59,710 nt of DNA, taken from NCBI GenBank assembly GCA_903922825.1, contig CAIXVE010000018.1, positions 1-59,710 on the forward strand, written 5' to 3'. Position 1 is the stretch's first letter. Every line of letters begins with the position of its first letter. The notes below the pieces were generated by a model, which ran no database searches, was not told the origin of the DNA, and worked only from the letters and a program-made list of their open reading frames with translations. Origin of the DNA: an uncultured Micrococcales bacterium. GTDB lineage: Bacteria > Actinomycetota > Actinomycetes > Actinomycetales > Microbacteriaceae. This document shows, piece after piece, positions 7,088-21,358 of the stretch. The translations under genes and the position numbers were made by a program.

Positions 7088-8254
7088 TTGATTAAAGTGC
7101 CAGCGATTAACCTAAATAAACCAAGCGCTCCTGAGGTCTTAACTCCTCGCCGTAAGAGTCGCAAGATTATGGTGGGAAATGTCGCTGTTGGTGGTGATGC
7201 ACCTATCTCGGTGCAGTCGATGACCACAACGCCAACTACAGATATCAACGCGACCCTTCAGCAGATCGCGGAGCTAACTGCAACAGGTTGTGACATCGTC
7301 CGCGTTGCTTGTCCGTCTCAAGATGATGCTGATGTTCTGAGAATTATTGCTAAGAAATCACCTATTCCGGTGATTGCAGACATCCACTTCCAGCCTAAGT
7401 ATGTTTTTCAGGCCATTGATGCTGGATGCGGTGCTGTTCGAGTAAACCCTGGCAACATTCGTCAATTTGATGACCAGGTAGGTGCAATTGCTAAAGCTGC
7501 CAAAGATGCCGGTGTCTCAATTCGTATTGGTGTGAACGCTGGTTCTTTGGATCCTCGTTTGCTACAAAAATATGGAAAGGCAACAGCTGAAGCTTTGGTT
7601 GAATCGGCTGTTTGGGAAGCCTCACTTTTTGAAGAGCATGATTTTCATGACTTTAAGATTTCTGTTAAGCACAACGACCCGGTTGTGATGGTTAAGGCAT
7701 ATGAACTTCTTGCAGAAAGAGGGGACTGGCCTCTTCACCTAGGTGTTACTGAAGCGGGACCAGCATTCCAGGGAACTATCAAGTCATCTGTTGCCTTTGG
7801 CGCATTGCTAAGTAAGGGAATTGGTGACACTATTCGTGTTTCACTTTCTGCTCCACCTGTCGAAGAAATCAAAGTTGGTTCTAAGATTCTTGAATCACTA
7901 AATCTACGTCCTCGTAAGTTTGAGATTGTTTCTTGTCCTTCATGTGGACGAGCCCAGGTTGATGTTTACAAGTTGGCTGAGGATGTTACAGCAGGCCTTG
8001 AACACATGACTGTTCCACTTCGTGTTGCAGTTATGGGCTGTGTTGTTAATGGACCTGGTGAGGCACGTGAAGCTGACCTAGGTGTAGCTTCAGGTAACGG
8101 CAAGGGCCAGATCTTCGTTAAGGGAGAAGTCATAAAGACAGTTCCTGAAAGTGAAATTGTAAAGACTCTGATCGAAGAAGCTAACCGTATGGCCGCAGAG
8201 ATGGACCCCGCGCTTATCGGTTCACCACAAGTTGTAGTTGCGAAGAAGGACTAA
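7088..8254 (+). CDS. ispG: 4-hydroxy-3-methylbut-2-enyl diphosphate synthase
   Basis: [34 protein letters not shown] and [11 protein letters not shown] Fe-S motifs. Confidence 0.96.
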
Positions 8255-8257
8255 TTA

Positions 8258-10012
8258 ATGTTGCTAAAAATGAGCAGCCTTTTTCTTCGCACTTTGCGCG
8301 AAGATCCGGCCGAAGCTGAAGTGGCAAGCCACAAACTCTTAGTCAGAGCGGGATATATCCGCAGAGCAGCACCGGGAATCTATACCTGGCTACCGCTTGG
8401 TTTGGCTGTTAAAGCTCGTGTCGAGCAAATCGTTCGCGAAGAAATGTCAAATGCTGGAGCACAAGAAGTTTTCTTCCCAGCATTACTTCCTAGAGAACCT
8501 TTTGAGGTTACTGGTCGTTGGACTGAATATGGTGACAACTTGTTCCGCTTGCAAGATCGTAAGAAGGCAGATTACCTTCTAGCTCCAACACATGAAGAGA
8601 TGTTCACACTTTTAGTAAAGGATCTTTACTCAAGCTATAAAGATTTACCTTTAACTTTGTTCCAAATTCAAAACAAATATCGTGATGAGGCTCGTCCTCG
8701 TGCAGGGCTTTTGCGTGGACGTGAGTTCGTCATGAAGGACGCTTACTCTTTCGATGTCACTCACGAAGGTTTGGTTAAGAGTTACCAAGCTCAGCGTGAT
8801 GCTTACGAGAGTATTTTCACCCGCCTTGGTTTGGAATACGTAATTGTGAAAGCAGATGCAGGTGCCATGGGTGGTTCTGCTAGTGAGGAATTCCTTTCAC
8901 CATCACCTATCGGCGAGGACACTTTCGTTAGATCGGCTGGAGGTTATGCTGCGAATGTTGAAGCAGTTACGATTAGTGCTCCTGCAGCAAGTTCAATTGA
9001 AGGCAAGCCAGTAGCCGAAACGAAGTCAACACCAGGCACTACTTCAATTGATGCTGTTGTTAGCTTCGCTCAGGAAAACCTAGGCTTCACAGACATAACT
9101 GCAGCTAGCACTTTGAAGCACATTGTTCTTGCAGTCACTGATGTAAATAAGAAACGTTCGTTAGTTGTAGTTGCCATTCCGGGAGATCGTGAAATGGAAC
9201 CCAAGCGAGCTGAAATTGTTTTCGCTGGATGCGACGTCGAGCCTGCTGGCGATGAAGATTTTGCTAAGCATCCTGAATTGGTCAAAGGTTACATCGGCCC
9301 GGTCAAGGACGGTAAACAGTTCCTCGGCGAGAAGGCTGAAAGCAAAATCAAGTATTTAGTTGATCCAAGAGTTGTTGTTGGTTCAAGTTGGGTAGCTGGA
9401 GCAAACACTAAAGATAATCACACCTTCAATCTTGTATTCGGCAGAGACTTTGACGCCGATGGTGTTGCAGATTTAGCTGAAATCAAAGCTGGAGATCCGG
9501 CTCCTGATGGCAGCGGCCCTTTGGAACTTGCACGTGGAATTGAAATCGGGCACGTCTTCCAGTTGGGTAAGAAATATGCTGAAGCGCTAGATCTAAAGGT
9601 CTTGGATGAGAATGGCAAACTTGTGACCGTGACTATGGGTTCCTACGGCGTCGGTGTCACCAGAATTATTGCTGTCTTGGCTGAAGCTAATAACGATGAT
9701 AAGGGACTTATCTGGCCTGAGGCAGTTGCTCCTGCTGATATTCACGTTGTTGCGGCTGGAAAAGAAGATGAAGTTTATGAAACCGCTGAGCGTTTAGCAT
9801 CTGAATTGCAAGCTAAAGGCAAGTCTGTTCTTTTGGATGATCGCTTGAAAGTTAGCCCAGGCGTGAAGTTCAGCGATGCCGAATTGCTTGGTATTCCTAA
9901 GATTTTGATTGTTGGTAGAGGTTTAGCTACAGGTGAAGTGGATATTTGGGACAGACGCTCTGGCGAGCGTCGCTCAGTCAAGGTAGAATTGGCAGTAGCC
10001 GAGCTGGCTTGA
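8258..10012 (+). CDS. proS: Prolyl-tRNA synthetase (start at 8258 or the in-frame ATG at 8270)
   Basis: Class II aaRS motifs ([33 protein letters not shown]), internal editing (INS) domain, C-terminal anticodon-binding domain. Confidence 0.95.
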
Positions 10013-15734: not shown

Positions 15735-15774
15735 GTTAACCTTCCGTTAACCTGCTTTCTAACTCCGTTTAATG
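15735..15774 (+). promoter_or_regulatory. Putative Pho box: GTTAACC tree at exact 11-nt period upstream of pstC
   Basis: GTTAACC (15735), GTTAACC (15746), TTCTAAC (15757), TTTAATG (15768), each 11 nt apart; resembles actinobacterial PhoP direct-repeat units. Confidence 0.65.
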
Positions 15775-15796: not shown

Positions 15797-16765
15797 ATGA
15801 GCGAGCCTGTCCAGAGACGTAAACTTGTCGCTGGTCCTTTAAGTAAGGGCGACAAGTGGTTCTTTAGATCCACATCCATCGCTGCTCACTTCGCGTTTGT
15901 GCTTGTTGCTCTAGTTCTGGTTTTCCTTTTAGTGCGAGCCTGGCCAGTATTACAAAGTCAGGGACTGGGTTTCATTACTGGAAATACTTGGTCACCGGAT
16001 CAAAAACCTATCGTTTTGCAACTAGGTCCAATGCTTTGGGGATCGATTCTTATCGCCTTTGTTGGAATTTTGATCGCAACACCGATGGCAGTTTCGATGG
16101 CTTATCTGATTGTGTTCATGCTGCCTAAACGTCTTGCTAAAGCTTTCACAACTCTGGTCGACCTTTTAGCCGCACTACCATCAGTTGTTATTGGTCTTTG
16201 GGGACTTTTAGTTTTCACCCCGTTGGCTGCATCTTGGGCTGAAGTTCTAAACAAATATCTTGGTTGGATTCCAATATTTGGCGTTAGTAATGCAGAGAAC
16301 GGTTTCATGAGTTCACCGTTTATTGCAGGTTGGATCGTGGCGGTAATGATAGTTCCAATCATTACTTCGGTGACCAGAGAAATCTTTAGCCAACTTGATA
16401 AAGACCTGATCAATGGAGCTCTAGCTCTTGGCGGATCTAGGCTCTCAACTTTTAGAAAAGTTATTTTGCCAACCTCATCCGGTGGTGTTGTTGGTGGTGT
16501 GCTTTTGGGACTTGGACGAGCTGTTGGTGAAACGGTAGCCATCTTCTATGTTTTGAACCTAACCATGGACATCAACTGGGCTCAACTACTAGAACCACAT
16601 GGTGGAGCGGTTGCATCTTGGATTTTGGCTCGATTTGGTGAAGCGAGCGGAACCGAGAAGCAGGGGCTTATGGCAGCTGGTTTAGTTTTGTTCGTGATCA
16701 CTTTGATCATCAACTATCTAGCTAACTTCATCGTGAATCGTGCTCAGCCTTGGAGGAAAAACTAA
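15797..16765 (+). CDS. pstC: Phosphate ABC transporter permease PstC
   Basis: Multi-TM permease with LINGALALGGSRLSTFRKVILPTSSGGVVGGVLLGLGRAVGET motif. Confidence 0.93.
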   Translation: MSEPVQRRKLVAGPLSKGDKWFFRSTSIAAHFAFVLVALVLVFLLVRAWPVLQSQGLGFITGNTWSPDQKPIVLQLGPMLWGSILIAFVGILIATPMAVSMAYLIVFMLPKRLAKAFTTLVDLLAALPSVVIGLWGLLVFTPLAASWAEVLNKYLGWIPIFGVSNAENGFMSSPFIAGWIVAVMIVPIITSVTREIFSQLDKDLINGALALGGSRLSTFRKVILPTSSGGVVGGVLLGLGRAVGETVAIFYVLNLTMDINWAQLLEPHGGAVASWILARFGEASGTEKQGLMAAGLVLFVITLIINYLANFIVNRAQPWRKN

Positions 16766-17820
16766 TGGCTAAAGCATTAGCAAACCAACCATGGCGTAAA
16801 GCAAACGTTGCTAGAAGACTCCAGATCTTTGTTGCATCATTGATTCCACTGCCTTTAGTTGTGTTGATTACTATCACTGCTCACCTAAACCCAATCTTGA
16901 GTTTCGCGGGCCTCTTCCTTCCACTGCAGCTAATAGCTGCTTCAGTTGTTGGCTATCTTGCCTACGGCCGCAGAGGTGTCGGAGATGCAGTTCTCGTTGT
17001 TCTGACTTTTTTCTTCTCGGCTTTTGTTTTGATTTTGCTGTTGAGCGTGCTTTCATCTGTGGTTATTCAGGGATCTAGAGCCATCTCTTGGCAGTTCATT
17101 TCCCAGAACAACGTCTATGTCTCACCGACTACATCGTTGGATTACGGAGGCGTTGGGCACGCAGTCGTTGGAACACTTCTGGTAGTTTTGCTCACCACCA
17201 TTGCCGCTGTTCCTTTGGGTCTAGCCATGGCTATTTACCTTACCCAGAGCCAATCGAAGACTCGAAACCTGGTCAGGACTTTCACCCAGGCGCTATCTGG
17301 ATTACCTTCTGTAGTTTCTGGTTTGTTTATTCTTTCGATCATTGAAGCTACCCACATTGGCCGTTCTGGTTTCACCGGTGCACTTGCGCTATTTCCGCTA
17401 ATGCTTCCAACAGTGGCTCGTGTTGCTGAAGAAGCTCTGAAACTTGTGCCAGTTGATCTTCGTTACGCAGCTCTGGCTCTAGGTGCTCCAAACTACCGCG
17501 CATTTTTTCAGGTGATTCTGCCGGCAGCCAAATCAGGTCTTTTGACAGCATTACTTTTAGGTCTTGCACGTGTTGTTGGTGAAACCGCTCCTTTGATTTT
17601 GACCATGAACCCTTCAAGCTCAACCTCGTTGAATCCTTTCAATGGTGGAATGACAACTCTGCCAACCTATATCTACAACTACCTCGCGTCTTCTTATGAG
17701 ACCAGTCAGGCTCGTGCCTGGGGAGCAGCATTGGTTCTTTTGATCCTGGTTGGATTCTTGTTTGGATTGGCCCGAGTTTTAGGTAAAAATAAATCGATTA
17801 AAAGTAAGGCAAGTAAATGA
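16765..17820 (+). CDS. pstA: Phosphate ABC transporter permease PstA
   Basis: Permease motif [44 protein letters not shown] 16765 with GGAGG upstream. Confidence 0.93.
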
Positions 17821-18602
17821 CTAACTTAATCACTTCATCTTCACTGCGTGCTGAGAATGTCAGCGTTTGGTTTGGTGAGCGTCAGGTTTTGAAAGACGTG
17901 AACCTTGTCTTTCCAGCTAATCAGGTAACTGCTTTGATTGGTCCATCCGGTTGCGGTAAGTCAACCTTCCTAAGAACCCTTAACCGCATGCACGAGCTAA
18001 TTCCTGGTGCTGGTCTAGCCGGTGCTGTTTACCTAGATGAACAGGACATCTATTCTGAGGCTATGGATGCTGTTAGCGTTCGAATTAAAGTAGGGATGGT
18101 TTTCCAGAAGCCAAACCCATTCCCAACCATGTCAATCAAAGAGAACATTCTGAGTGGTTTGAAACTAAGCGGTCGCAAAATCAAAGATGCAGACCAACTT
18201 GTGGAAACCTCACTTAGAAGAGCATCCATTTGGAACGAAGTGAAAGACCGTCTTAGTGATCAGGCTATTTCACTCTCAGGTGGACAACAGCAGCGTCTGT
18301 GTATTGCTCGAAGCCTAGCCATGGACCCAGAGGTTTTGCTTATGGATGAGCCTTGTTCAGCTCTCGACCCAGGTTCAACCCGTCGAATCGAAGAGACGAT
18401 TAGCGAATTGGCTGAAAGCATGTCAATTGTTATTGTGACCCACAACATGCAGCAGGCGCAGCGTGTTTCAGACCAAACAGCATTCTTCCTAGCTGAAGAA
18501 GGCATGCCTGGTGGGGTAGTGGAGTTCGGCTCAACCGAGCAGGTTTTCAATGGCCCTATCGACCAGAGAACCAATGACTATGTGAACGGTCACTTCGGTT
18601 AA
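17817..18602 (+). CDS. pstB: Phosphate ABC transporter ATP-binding protein PstB
   Basis: [49 protein letters not shown]. Confidence 0.95.
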
Positions 18603-18718
18603 CACCATTTGTTAACCTGACATTTGCCCACTCGAAAGGTTAAACAAACCATTCGTTTATCAAGGAACCAAATACTGAACACATCGAAACCTCGATAAAA
18701 ACGACATCAAGGAGAAAA

Positions 18719-19822
18719 ATGCGTAACAAGCTAATGACCGTGATTGCAGCTATTGCTGTTGTTGCCGGTGTAGTTATTTCAGCTCCAGCTAACGCTGCGG
18801 GCGTATCAATTGCAGGTAAGGGATCATCTTTCGCTAACGGCATGCTTCAGGTTTGTACTGCTGCTTACCCAACCAACACTGCCTCTTACACTTCAACCGG
18901 ATCAGGTACTGGTCGTACCGAGTTCGCTGCTGGAAACGTTCAGTGGGCCGCTTCTGACAACCAGTACACAACTGCTCCACTTCCTGGCTTCAACTACACA
19001 ACAGTTCCACTATTCGGTGGCCCAGTAGTATTTGCTTACTCAGCTGTTGGTGTTGGAGACGGTCTAAACCTAGACGCTTCAGTAATTTCAGGTATCTTCA
19101 AGGGAACAATCACCAAGTGGAACGACGCTGCAATCAAGGCTCTAAACACAAAGGTCAAGCTTCCAAACAAGAGCATCAAGGTTGCATACCGCGCATCAGG
19201 TTCAGGTACAACTGCAAACCTAACTAGCTACCTAAACCAGACTGTTGGTGGATGGCTAGCAAACAACAAGGATCTTGTTGCTTCTGCTGGTGGTTCAGGT
19301 TCATTCTCAACCAACTCAACTTCATTCGCTACTTCACAGCTTCTAGCTGCTTACATTGAAGACAACTCAAACGCATTTGGTTACTTCGATCTATCAGACG
19401 CTCTAACTGCTGACGTGGGTATCGCAAAGCTAAAGAACGCTGCTGGCGCATTCGTTATGCCAACTGCTTCTGCTGCTGGTAAGTTCATCAACGCACAACC
19501 AATTATCACTGGTTCAACTGATGCACTAAACGGAACAATTGGTTTCACCTCAAACGGAACGCTAGTTCTAGGTCCAAACTTCACAAAGGTTATTCCTGGT
19601 GCTTACCAGCTATCAATCGTGACTTATGGCCTAGCACCTCGTTTCGACAACGGTGGCAACTCAAAGCTTAAGAGCACAGACGCAACCAAGTTGGCTGTTC
19701 AAGACTTCTTCAACTACGTTGTGAAGACCTGTGTTCCAGCAAAGGCTGCAAGCTTGGGCTACGTACCTCTAGGTTCAGCATTGAAGACTTCAGTGCTAGC
19801 TCAGATCAAGAACATCGGCTAA
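18719..19822 (+). CDS. pstS: Phosphate ABC transporter substrate-binding protein PstS; type I (AxA) signal peptide, no lipobox Cys
   Basis: Signal peptide ...VVISAPANA|AG; STGSGTGR, IFKGTITKWND, YRASGSGTTANL phosphate-binding motifs. Confidence 0.92.
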   Translation: MRNKLMTVIAAIAVVAGVVISAPANAAGVSIAGKGSSFANGMLQVCTAAYPTNTASYTSTGSGTGRTEFAAGNVQWAASDNQYTTAPLPGFNYTTVPLFGGPVVFAYSAVGVGDGLNLDASVISGIFKGTITKWNDAAIKALNTKVKLPNKSIKVAYRASGSGTTANLTSYLNQTVGGWLANNKDLVASAGGSGSFSTNSTSFATSQLLAAYIEDNSNAFGYFDLSDALTADVGIAKLKNAAGAFVMPTASAAGKFINAQPIITGSTDALNGTIGFTSNGTLVLGPNFTKVIPGAYQLSIVTYGLAPRFDNGGNSKLKSTDATKLAVQDFFNYVVKTCVPAKAASLGYVPLGSALKTSVLAQIKNIG

Positions 19823-19841
19823 TAACCACAAATAGCTAAAG

Positions 19842-19873
19842 AAGTGGTGCAGAGTTAAACTCTGCACCACTTT
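19842..19873 (+). terminator. Perfect 13-bp hairpin between pstS and the downstream pstS-like gene (terminator/attenuator or 3' stabiliser)
   Basis: AAGTGGTGCAGAG-TTAAA-CTCTGCACCACTT then TCTTGG; short pyrimidine tail only. Confidence 0.75.
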
Positions 19874-19895
19874 CTTGGCGTTTAGAAGGAGAGAC

Positions 19896-20957
19896 ATGAA
19901 GTTTGGAAGACTGCTGAGCGCGGTTGCCATCATGGGTACTGCCGCAATTTCTTTGACCGCTTGTGATCCTCCAATGCCCCCAGAGGTTGCTGCTGCGCTA
20001 GCAGAGCAAACCTACACCTGCATCCAAGGCGATTCCAAAATAAGTTCTCCCACAGCGATGACAGACCTAGTTGCTGGTTGGGCTGATTCGCTTACCTACG
20101 CTTGTGTTGACCCTGAGCCGGTTATGACCTTGACCTCAACGGATACTCCTGCGGATGCTCAGATGGTCATTTCTGAATACGCGCCAGAGTGCACTTTCTC
20201 AAATTCAGTTCCGTTTGCAGTTGATGCTGGGGCTTTTATTTATACCGAGTCGGATCTCGGAACTCTAAATCTTTCACCAAAGAGCATGGCCGGCATTTTG
20301 ACCGGAAAAATTACCAACTGGAACCAACTTGCAAAGGACAATGCTGGTTATGAAATGCCTGACCTACCTTTGGTGCTATCTCCAAAAGCTGACACATTGG
20401 CATTGAAATCTGTAACCGATTACCTGGCAAATCAGGGAATTACGCTTCCCGCAACCCTCAAGGTTCAGGCTGTTGATCATTTAGACAACACAGAGTCTGC
20501 AATGTTGCCTCAAGGATCAATGGCTATCGTTCCAAACAGTTTTGCAGTGAGCATGGGGCTATATCCTGCCAACATCTACTTGGGCGTGGATGCAGATGGA
20601 CAAGACATCTTGGCGATGGCTGATGTGTCTGGAATTCAATCGGCAAGCACTCAATGGGATAGCAACACATCCGGTAGCTCTGTTTCTGTGAAGTTGAATA
20701 CTTCAAATAAACCGGTTGCTCCTGAAGGTTCGGATGTTGCTCCGACTCCCTATCAGATGATTTATCCAGTAAATCTTTATGCATGTGGTGCAGATGAACT
20801 TCTTCCAAGAGCTATTGCAAGATTCTTGCTACGCCTGGACTCACAAGGTGCTCTGGCTGCTTCTAACTACGCTCCACTGCCTGAAGCTGTGCGAATTCAG
20901 GCACTCGTGAGTATCAGCAAGGGTCTACCAACTCCAAAGCCAACTCCAACTAACTAG
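19896..20957 (+). CDS. Divergent PstS-fold lipoprotein
   Basis: Signal peptide with lipobox LTAC (SLTAC|DPP); PstS-like segment LSPKSMAGILTGKITNWNQLAKDN; canonical SGSGT phosphate motif not visible; Pro/Thr tail. Confidence 0.8.
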   Translation: MKFGRLLSAVAIMGTAAISLTACDPPMPPEVAAALAEQTYTCIQGDSKISSPTAMTDLVAGWADSLTYACVDPEPVMTLTSTDTPADAQMVISEYAPECTFSNSVPFAVDAGAFIYTESDLGTLNLSPKSMAGILTGKITNWNQLAKDNAGYEMPDLPLVLSPKADTLALKSVTDYLANQGITLPATLKVQAVDHLDNTESAMLPQGSMAIVPNSFAVSMGLYPANIYLGVDADGQDILAMADVSGIQSASTQWDSNTSGSSVSVKLNTSNKPVAPEGSDVAPTPYQMIYPVNLYACGADELLPRAIARFLLRLDSQGALAASNYAPLPEAVRIQALVSISKGLPTPKPTPTN

Positions 20958-20974: not shown

Positions 20975-21358
20975 ATGGAACAGAAGCGCTCTAGTTTAGG
21001 TGTCGGCAATCTAGTAATTGCCATTTACGCGATCTTTGCTCTATCTGCGACGGTTAGAGCTGCCTATCAGTTGGCTCGTAAATTTCAAGATGCACCAGTT
21101 GCCTATTCTTTGAGTTTGCTATCTGGACTTATTTATGTTGTGGCAACGGTTGCTTTAGTTAGAAAAGATTTCAAGTTGGCGAGAATCACCTTGATTTTTG
21201 AGTTAGTCGGTGTTCTGCTTGTGGGTTCGTTGAGTTTGCTTTTGCCTGAACTTTTTGCTCATCCCAGTGTCTGGTCATATTTTGGTATTGGTTATGGCTT
21301 TGTTCCCTTGGCTTTGCCTATATTTGGTTTGTGGTGGCTTAGGAGAGTTTCTAAATGA
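20975..21358 (+). CDS. Small multi-TM hypothetical membrane protein upstream of ribF
   Basis: Hydrophobic segments; ATG preceded by TAGGCT-N6. Confidence 0.7.
   Translation: MEQKRSSLGVGNLVIAIYAIFALSATVRAAYQLARKFQDAPVAYSLSLLSGLIYVVATVALVRKDFKLARITLIFELVGVLLVGSLSLLLPELFAHPSVWSYFGIGYGFVPLALPIFGLWWLRRVSK

Follow-up and report, generated by a model that had tools for sequence, protein, structure and literature searches.

A non-lipidated PstS and a co-occurring PstS-fold lipoprotein without predicted phosphate ligands: a possible split of the phosphate-binding function in freshwater actinobacteria

Introduction

In monoderm bacteria, a lipid or transmembrane anchor is thought to be needed to keep the binding proteins of importers near the permease. 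The pst locus described here raises the question of how a phosphate importer operates when its PstS (hereafter P1) carries no such anchor and is followed by a second, lipidated protein of the same fold (P2). The original prediction was that the two proteins may constitute a two-part phosphate capture system. The locus lies in a 59,710-nt stretch of DNA (the window), contig 18 of a draft genome that spans 1.22 Mb and is about 86% complete. We took the genus of this genome to be Rhodoluna; its sister genus (g34) is probably Aquiluna. This Luna-1 pair of genera has been described, and passages of the comparative paper report pst genes in both, with the arrangement described here unmentioned in those passages (PMC12422013). 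We came across no account of such a pair of proteins in the literature searched.

Results

Organization of the pst operon

The pst operon of the window is encoded on the forward strand between truB and ribF in the order pstC-pstA-pstB-pstS-P2, which differs from the S-C-A-B order of the PstSCAB importer. The two permease genes, pstC (positions 15797–16765) and pstA (16765–17820), and the ATPase gene pstB (17817–18602) resemble those of that importer, and all three products score above the NCBIfam equivalog cut-offs (TIGR02138, 237 bits; TIGR00974, 225 bits; and TIGR00972, 359 bits, respectively). The pstA start was placed at the ATG at 16765; an alternative TTG at 16750 is likewise open. A PHO-box-like direct repeat, GTTAACC-TTCC-GTTAACC (15735–15752, forward strand), is located 45 bp upstream of pstC and is the sole perfect match to GTTMACC-N4-GTTMACC in the window. 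Its form agrees with that of the PHO box, in which a 4-nt spacer separates two 7-nt units (PMC4415409). Imperfect repeats of the same type, TAACACC-ATTT-GTTAACC-TGAC-ATTTGCC (18600–18628, forward strand), form two overlapping matches with three mismatches each upstream of pstS, and similar 11-nt repeats were seen by eye upstream of pstS in most relatives. Downstream of P2, a conserved gene for a 127-aa membrane protein (20975–21358) without a Pfam match adjoins ribF. It was rejected as a part of the pst system, as it is also present in genomes that lack P2 and in other genera.

PstS retains the phosphate site and lacks an anchor

The pstS gene (18719–19822, forward strand) codes for a 367-aa protein that was identified as a soluble, non-lipidated phosphate-binding protein from its PF12849 match, ligand residues and AF2 model. 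The N-terminus reads MRNKLMTVIAAIAVVAGVVISAPANA/AG and corresponds to a type I signal peptide of the AxA kind, as anticipated in the original prediction, with the first cysteine at residue 46. A pattern scan detected a lipobox in none of the 30 P1 orthologues, so the usual lipid anchor of monoderm binding proteins is missing, and a further eight P1 N-termini (L102–L109) likewise read as type I. Both cysteines of P1, C46 and C338, are present throughout the P1 alignment except in L050, which has neither. The match to PF12849 (PBP_like_2) reaches 89.7 bits (cut-off 27), and the match to the PstS equivalog TIGR00975 stays below its cut-off (144 versus 205 bits). P1 is a divergent PstS, and its function is assigned by its ligands, fold and operon.

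The predicted retention of SGSGT-type phosphate motifs was borne out. GSSF (residues 35–38), GSGTG (61–65), SD (79–80) and RASGSGTT (158–165) are all intact, and the ligand positions of both lobes align with the motifs of E. coli PstS. In a 31-row alignment, S62, D80, R158, S162, G163 and T164 are invariant, and S37 and F38 are nearly so. The AF2 model (pLDDT 90.5) superimposes on solved PstS folds with TM scores of 0.65–0.83, closer than P2 does. P1 and P2 are the only PF12849 matches in the draft genome of the window, which is about 86% complete, and P1 is the sole phosphate-binding PstS found there; G006, a complete Rhodoluna genome that we take to be that of R. lacicola MWH-Ta8, likewise contains only this pair.

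P2 is an anchored protein of PstS fold

P2 (19896–20957, forward strand; 353 aa) begins with MKFGRLLSAVAIMGTAAISLTAC/DPPMPPE, comprising the lipobox LTAC/D and a conserved CDPPMPPE motif, and contains MAGILTGKITNWNQL and LSPKADTLALKSV. The lipobox, the PstS-like segment and the altered SGSGT region that had been noticed from the sequence were all found in place. A lipobox with an invariant cysteine was detected by pattern scan in 30/30 P2 orthologues, which identifies P2 as a bacterial lipoprotein; set against 0/30 for P1, the split is more than would be expected by chance. The match of P2 to PF12849 (32.7 bits, cut-off 27) places it in the PstS-like fold, and its AF2 model is confident (pLDDT 89.2, pTM 0.85). 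The solved structures closest to this model are PstS proteins, the best being M. tuberculosis PstS1 (E 4e-16, TM 0.54–0.57); by profile, the best match is M. tuberculosis PstS3, which shares with P2 the lipobox and three cysteine positions.

PstS1 and PstS3 were solved as phosphate-binding proteins, whereas the alignment and the model of P2 show phosphate ligands in neither lobe. In the C-lobe, the loop that matches the P1 ligand loop reads LSPKADTLALK and is variable among orthologues. In the N-lobe, the phosphate helix that would follow strand 77–81 is absent from the P2 model; the P1 model has this helix at residues 62–70. The residues of P2 that are invariant lie elsewhere: the lipobox cysteine, PPxP, E37, C42, C70, P106, W142, R313, G318, R333 and GL 343–344.

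The preserved fold would also suit a binding protein that uses PstCAB alongside P1 but recognizes another ligand (a phosphate ester, phosphonate, other anion or peptide), with P1 serving phosphate. Two binding proteins per permease are common, both lobes of P2 are kept in a confident PstS-like fold, and a set of residues particular to P2, among them S215, R305, R313, D315 and Q317, is conserved. However, unconserved residues take the place of the anion-binding loop where the C-lobe helix begins, and the N-lobe helix is missing from the model. An independent specificity would also not be expected to come with obligate pairing to P1 and the lower expression inferred for P2 (both described below), and we regard this explanation as unlikely.

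Cysteines 42 and 70 are invariant in P2, and C99 and C298 occur together in 22 of the 29 aligned rows and are jointly missing from the other 7, a pattern that suggests two disulphides. Cysteines 42, 70 and 99 align with cysteines of PstS3, and C298 with a cysteine of a conventional actinobacterial PstS (L128); because of these matches, the P2 cysteines can be regarded as ancestral PstS disulphides. The original prediction had listed several extra cysteines and a Pro/Thr tail. Both features are present, but the cysteines are not extra, and the tail is short and variable. A special adaptation of the P2 cysteines was rejected on the basis of their match to conventional PstS and the joint loss of C99 and C298 in 7/29 rows.

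The N-terminus shows a different type of conservation. In ordinary lipoproteins, the stretch after the lipidated cysteine is a variable tether. In P2, the 19 residues past this cysteine are the best conserved part of the protein besides the lipobox, with a mean identity of 66% versus 29% among conventional PstS proteins, although for the whole protein the identities are 38% for P2 and 60% for conventional PstS. This suggests that the conserved N-terminus of P2 may form a contact site.

P2 is the fastest evolving gene among those compared (mean distance of 1.33 versus 1.0 for PstS and 0.24 for PstB), and in a tree with other PstS proteins its stem branch of 1.35 gives it no firm place among them. 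Its rate could be taken to indicate that P2 is a PstS duplicate in decay, or that it is merely linked to the operon as a surface protein with no part in transport. Against this stand the invariance of the lipobox cysteine, PPxP and cysteines 42 and 70 in the aligned rows, the retention of P2 in 40/40 genomes that carry P1, and its position beside pstB in two rearranged operons, which together make decay or mere linkage highly doubtful.

P1 and P2 co-occur and are inherited together

The presence of P1 and P2 was compared across 50 genomes of Rhodoluna and its sister genus. Both proteins are encoded in 40 genomes and neither in 10, with no discordant case. The 40 genomes are that of the window, 31/35 and 4/5 further Rhodoluna genomes and 4/9 genomes of the sister genus. 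No P2 was detected beyond the two genera in 346 genomes of the order and 396 of the phylum. Membership of P2 in a wider family was rejected, as at E<1e-21 the order genomes yielded no match and the phylum genomes ordinary PstS alone; two weak matches (L127 and L128) were also dismissed as ordinary lipidated PstS proteins. In two genomes (G023 and G012), pstS is located elsewhere and P2 lies directly downstream of pstB, in G023 with its start codon about a dozen bases past the pstB stop. P2 thus stays with pstCAB where pstS does not.

The P1 and P2 trees both nest the sister-genus copies (L103, L104, L106 and L109) inside Rhodoluna, beside R. lacicola, as would be expected if P1 and P2 travelled together. 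This suggests that the operon was transferred between the genera at the same truB-ribF site.

Other pst systems occur in the same lineage. Among the conventional pstS-pstC-pstA-pstB operons of the family, 29 PstS proteins have a clear lipobox and one (L114) a weak one, and three genomes that carry P2 (G017, G149 and G070) have a second, conventional operon with a lipidated PstS. A third type of PstS, about 520–560 aa long and with a type I signal, is encoded after pstC-pstA (L069, L070, L071, L072, L111, L121 and L122); the C-termini were examined for L111, L121 and L122 and end in a likely transmembrane helix. One genome that is 99% complete and has neither P1 nor P2 (G306) contains two operons of the long-PstS type.

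These systems bear on the idea that P2 is a regulator, namely a pseudo-binding protein held at the membrane that gates the permease or signals the state of P1/PstCA to PhoR/PhoU. This idea is favored by the role of Pst complexes as signalling hubs, by the PHO-box-like element ahead of the operon and by phoU, which was found elsewhere in the genome of the window. P2, however, has no transmembrane or cytoplasmic part, no sensor gene adjoins it, and the conventional and long-PstS systems of the same genera do without P2. A regulatory role is accordingly rated as quite unlikely.

Unanchored binding proteins without a partner

In five Rhodoluna genomes, 20 of the 24 SBP_bac_1 proteins have a lipobox. 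Three others (L141, L151 and L154) are sugar-binding proteins with type I signals and no lipobox, and the signal of L160 looks uncleaved. No partner lipoprotein was found beside L141, L151 or L154, which are encoded in ordinary sugar operons. The notion that every non-lipidated binding protein of the genus has a partner lipoprotein was rejected on these grounds; the Rhodoluna lineage tolerates unanchored binding proteins, and a missing anchor alone does not imply a docking protein. At L163:5195–8263, the genome of the window also encodes a non-lipidated MalE-like protein beside a 537-aa MalF-like permease, in which a segment of roughly 200 residues, without a match to Pfam MalF-P2, separates the N-terminal helices from the permease domain.

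Across the phylum, 23 of the 24 best sampled P1 relatives are lipidated. The exception (L168/L192, genome G1002) belongs to the same phylum and lies outside the class of the window. In the tree, the L192 PstS groups with P1 as its sister (100/99). It has no lipobox, and its operon belongs to the closest operon relatives of the P1 operon (PstB 63%). It differs in its order, pstC-pstA-pstS-pstB, and in having no P2. The L192 PstS (7303–8640), the closest outside relative of P1, has a C-terminal extension that forms an extra domain with two cysteines. The lack of both a lipid anchor and P2 in this relative counts against a tether or docking role for P2, although this PstS carries the extra domain.

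Possible coevolution and predicted relative dose of the two proteins

After removal of the RibF and TruB background, the correlation between P1 and P2 distances was 0.67; when PstC, PstA and PstB were also removed, the residual correlation was 0.30 (p 0.0015). Given P1, the values for P2 were 0.18 with PstC and 0.01 with PstA, neither of them significant, and 0.44 with PstB. This weak mirror-tree signal leans towards a link of P2 with PstS rather than with PstA or PstC; it may alternatively stem from shared operon history or saturation.

A conserved hairpin lies between pstS and P2 (19835–19879, forward strand; fold of -32 kcal/mol, z -6.9). A strong hairpin is predicted in 26/26 folded pstS-P2 intergenic regions (-28.8 to -46.8 kcal/mol), with diverse stem sequences, and the z values in five other intergenic regions tested were -3.9 to -7.3. 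The effective codon number of pstS (Nc 32.3) is the lowest among 14 window genes tested, compared with 34.8 for PNPase and 52.6 for P2. Together, the hairpin and the codon bias suggest that PstS would be produced in large excess over P2.

Discussion

The refuting observations named with the original prediction did not materialize: no P1 orthologue begins with a lipobox, the ligands of P2 are lost rather than intact, and the two genes are concordant in 50/50 genomes. Its two-part reading stands in so far as the pairing is genuine and obligate, is inherited jointly, and comes with complementary loss of the anchor and the ligand site. Its reasoning is weakened by the three sugar-binding proteins that lack both an anchor and a partner, and by the ancestral character of the P2 cysteines.

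We consider it probable that P2 serves the Pst system of this clade as an obligate accessory subunit. In the mechanism that we favor, the binding function of a Pst-type importer would be divided between two PstS-fold proteins. P1, which keeps the phosphate site and would be exported through its type I signal without a membrane anchor, may be present in excess, released or loosely held, and bind phosphate in the wall zone. P2, which keeps the lipid anchor and the PstS fold but has phosphate ligands in neither lobe, would be fixed to the membrane at lower copy, where it may hold or receive loaded P1, sit on PstCA, or both, so that P1 would hand phosphate to PstCA locally. Taken separately, this tether or docking role for P2 falls a little short of an even chance. 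The full proposal is that Rhodoluna, together with part of its sister genus, has a split PstS, in which an abundant unanchored PstS captures phosphate and a ligand-less lipidated PstS-fold protein retains it or hands it over at the membrane, as a dedicated docking subunit of an ABC importer that arose through complementary loss; we assign it a probability of about 0.38.

The arrangement can be compared with known systems. It shares with the PstSCAB importer the PstC, PstA and PstB equivalogs and, in P1, the PstS fold and phosphate ligands, and differs from it in the non-lipidated PstS in a monoderm lineage and in the second, ligand-less PstS-fold lipoprotein. Importers with two substrate-binding domains, such as OpuA and PstS1/PstS2 pairs, likewise have two binding-protein folds per permease. 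In those systems, both binding proteins are anchored and both bind ligand, whereas here one protein is unanchored and has the site and the other is anchored and lacks it.

R. lacicola MWH-Ta8 has been described in pure culture (PMC4156110), and the split-PstS idea is therefore open to biochemistry and cell fractionation. The pair belongs to actinobacteria that are abundant in freshwater and often face phosphate scarcity. A sole unanchored PstS with an obligate, anchored look-alike devoid of the phosphate site would be another way to keep the binding protein of an importer near its permease.
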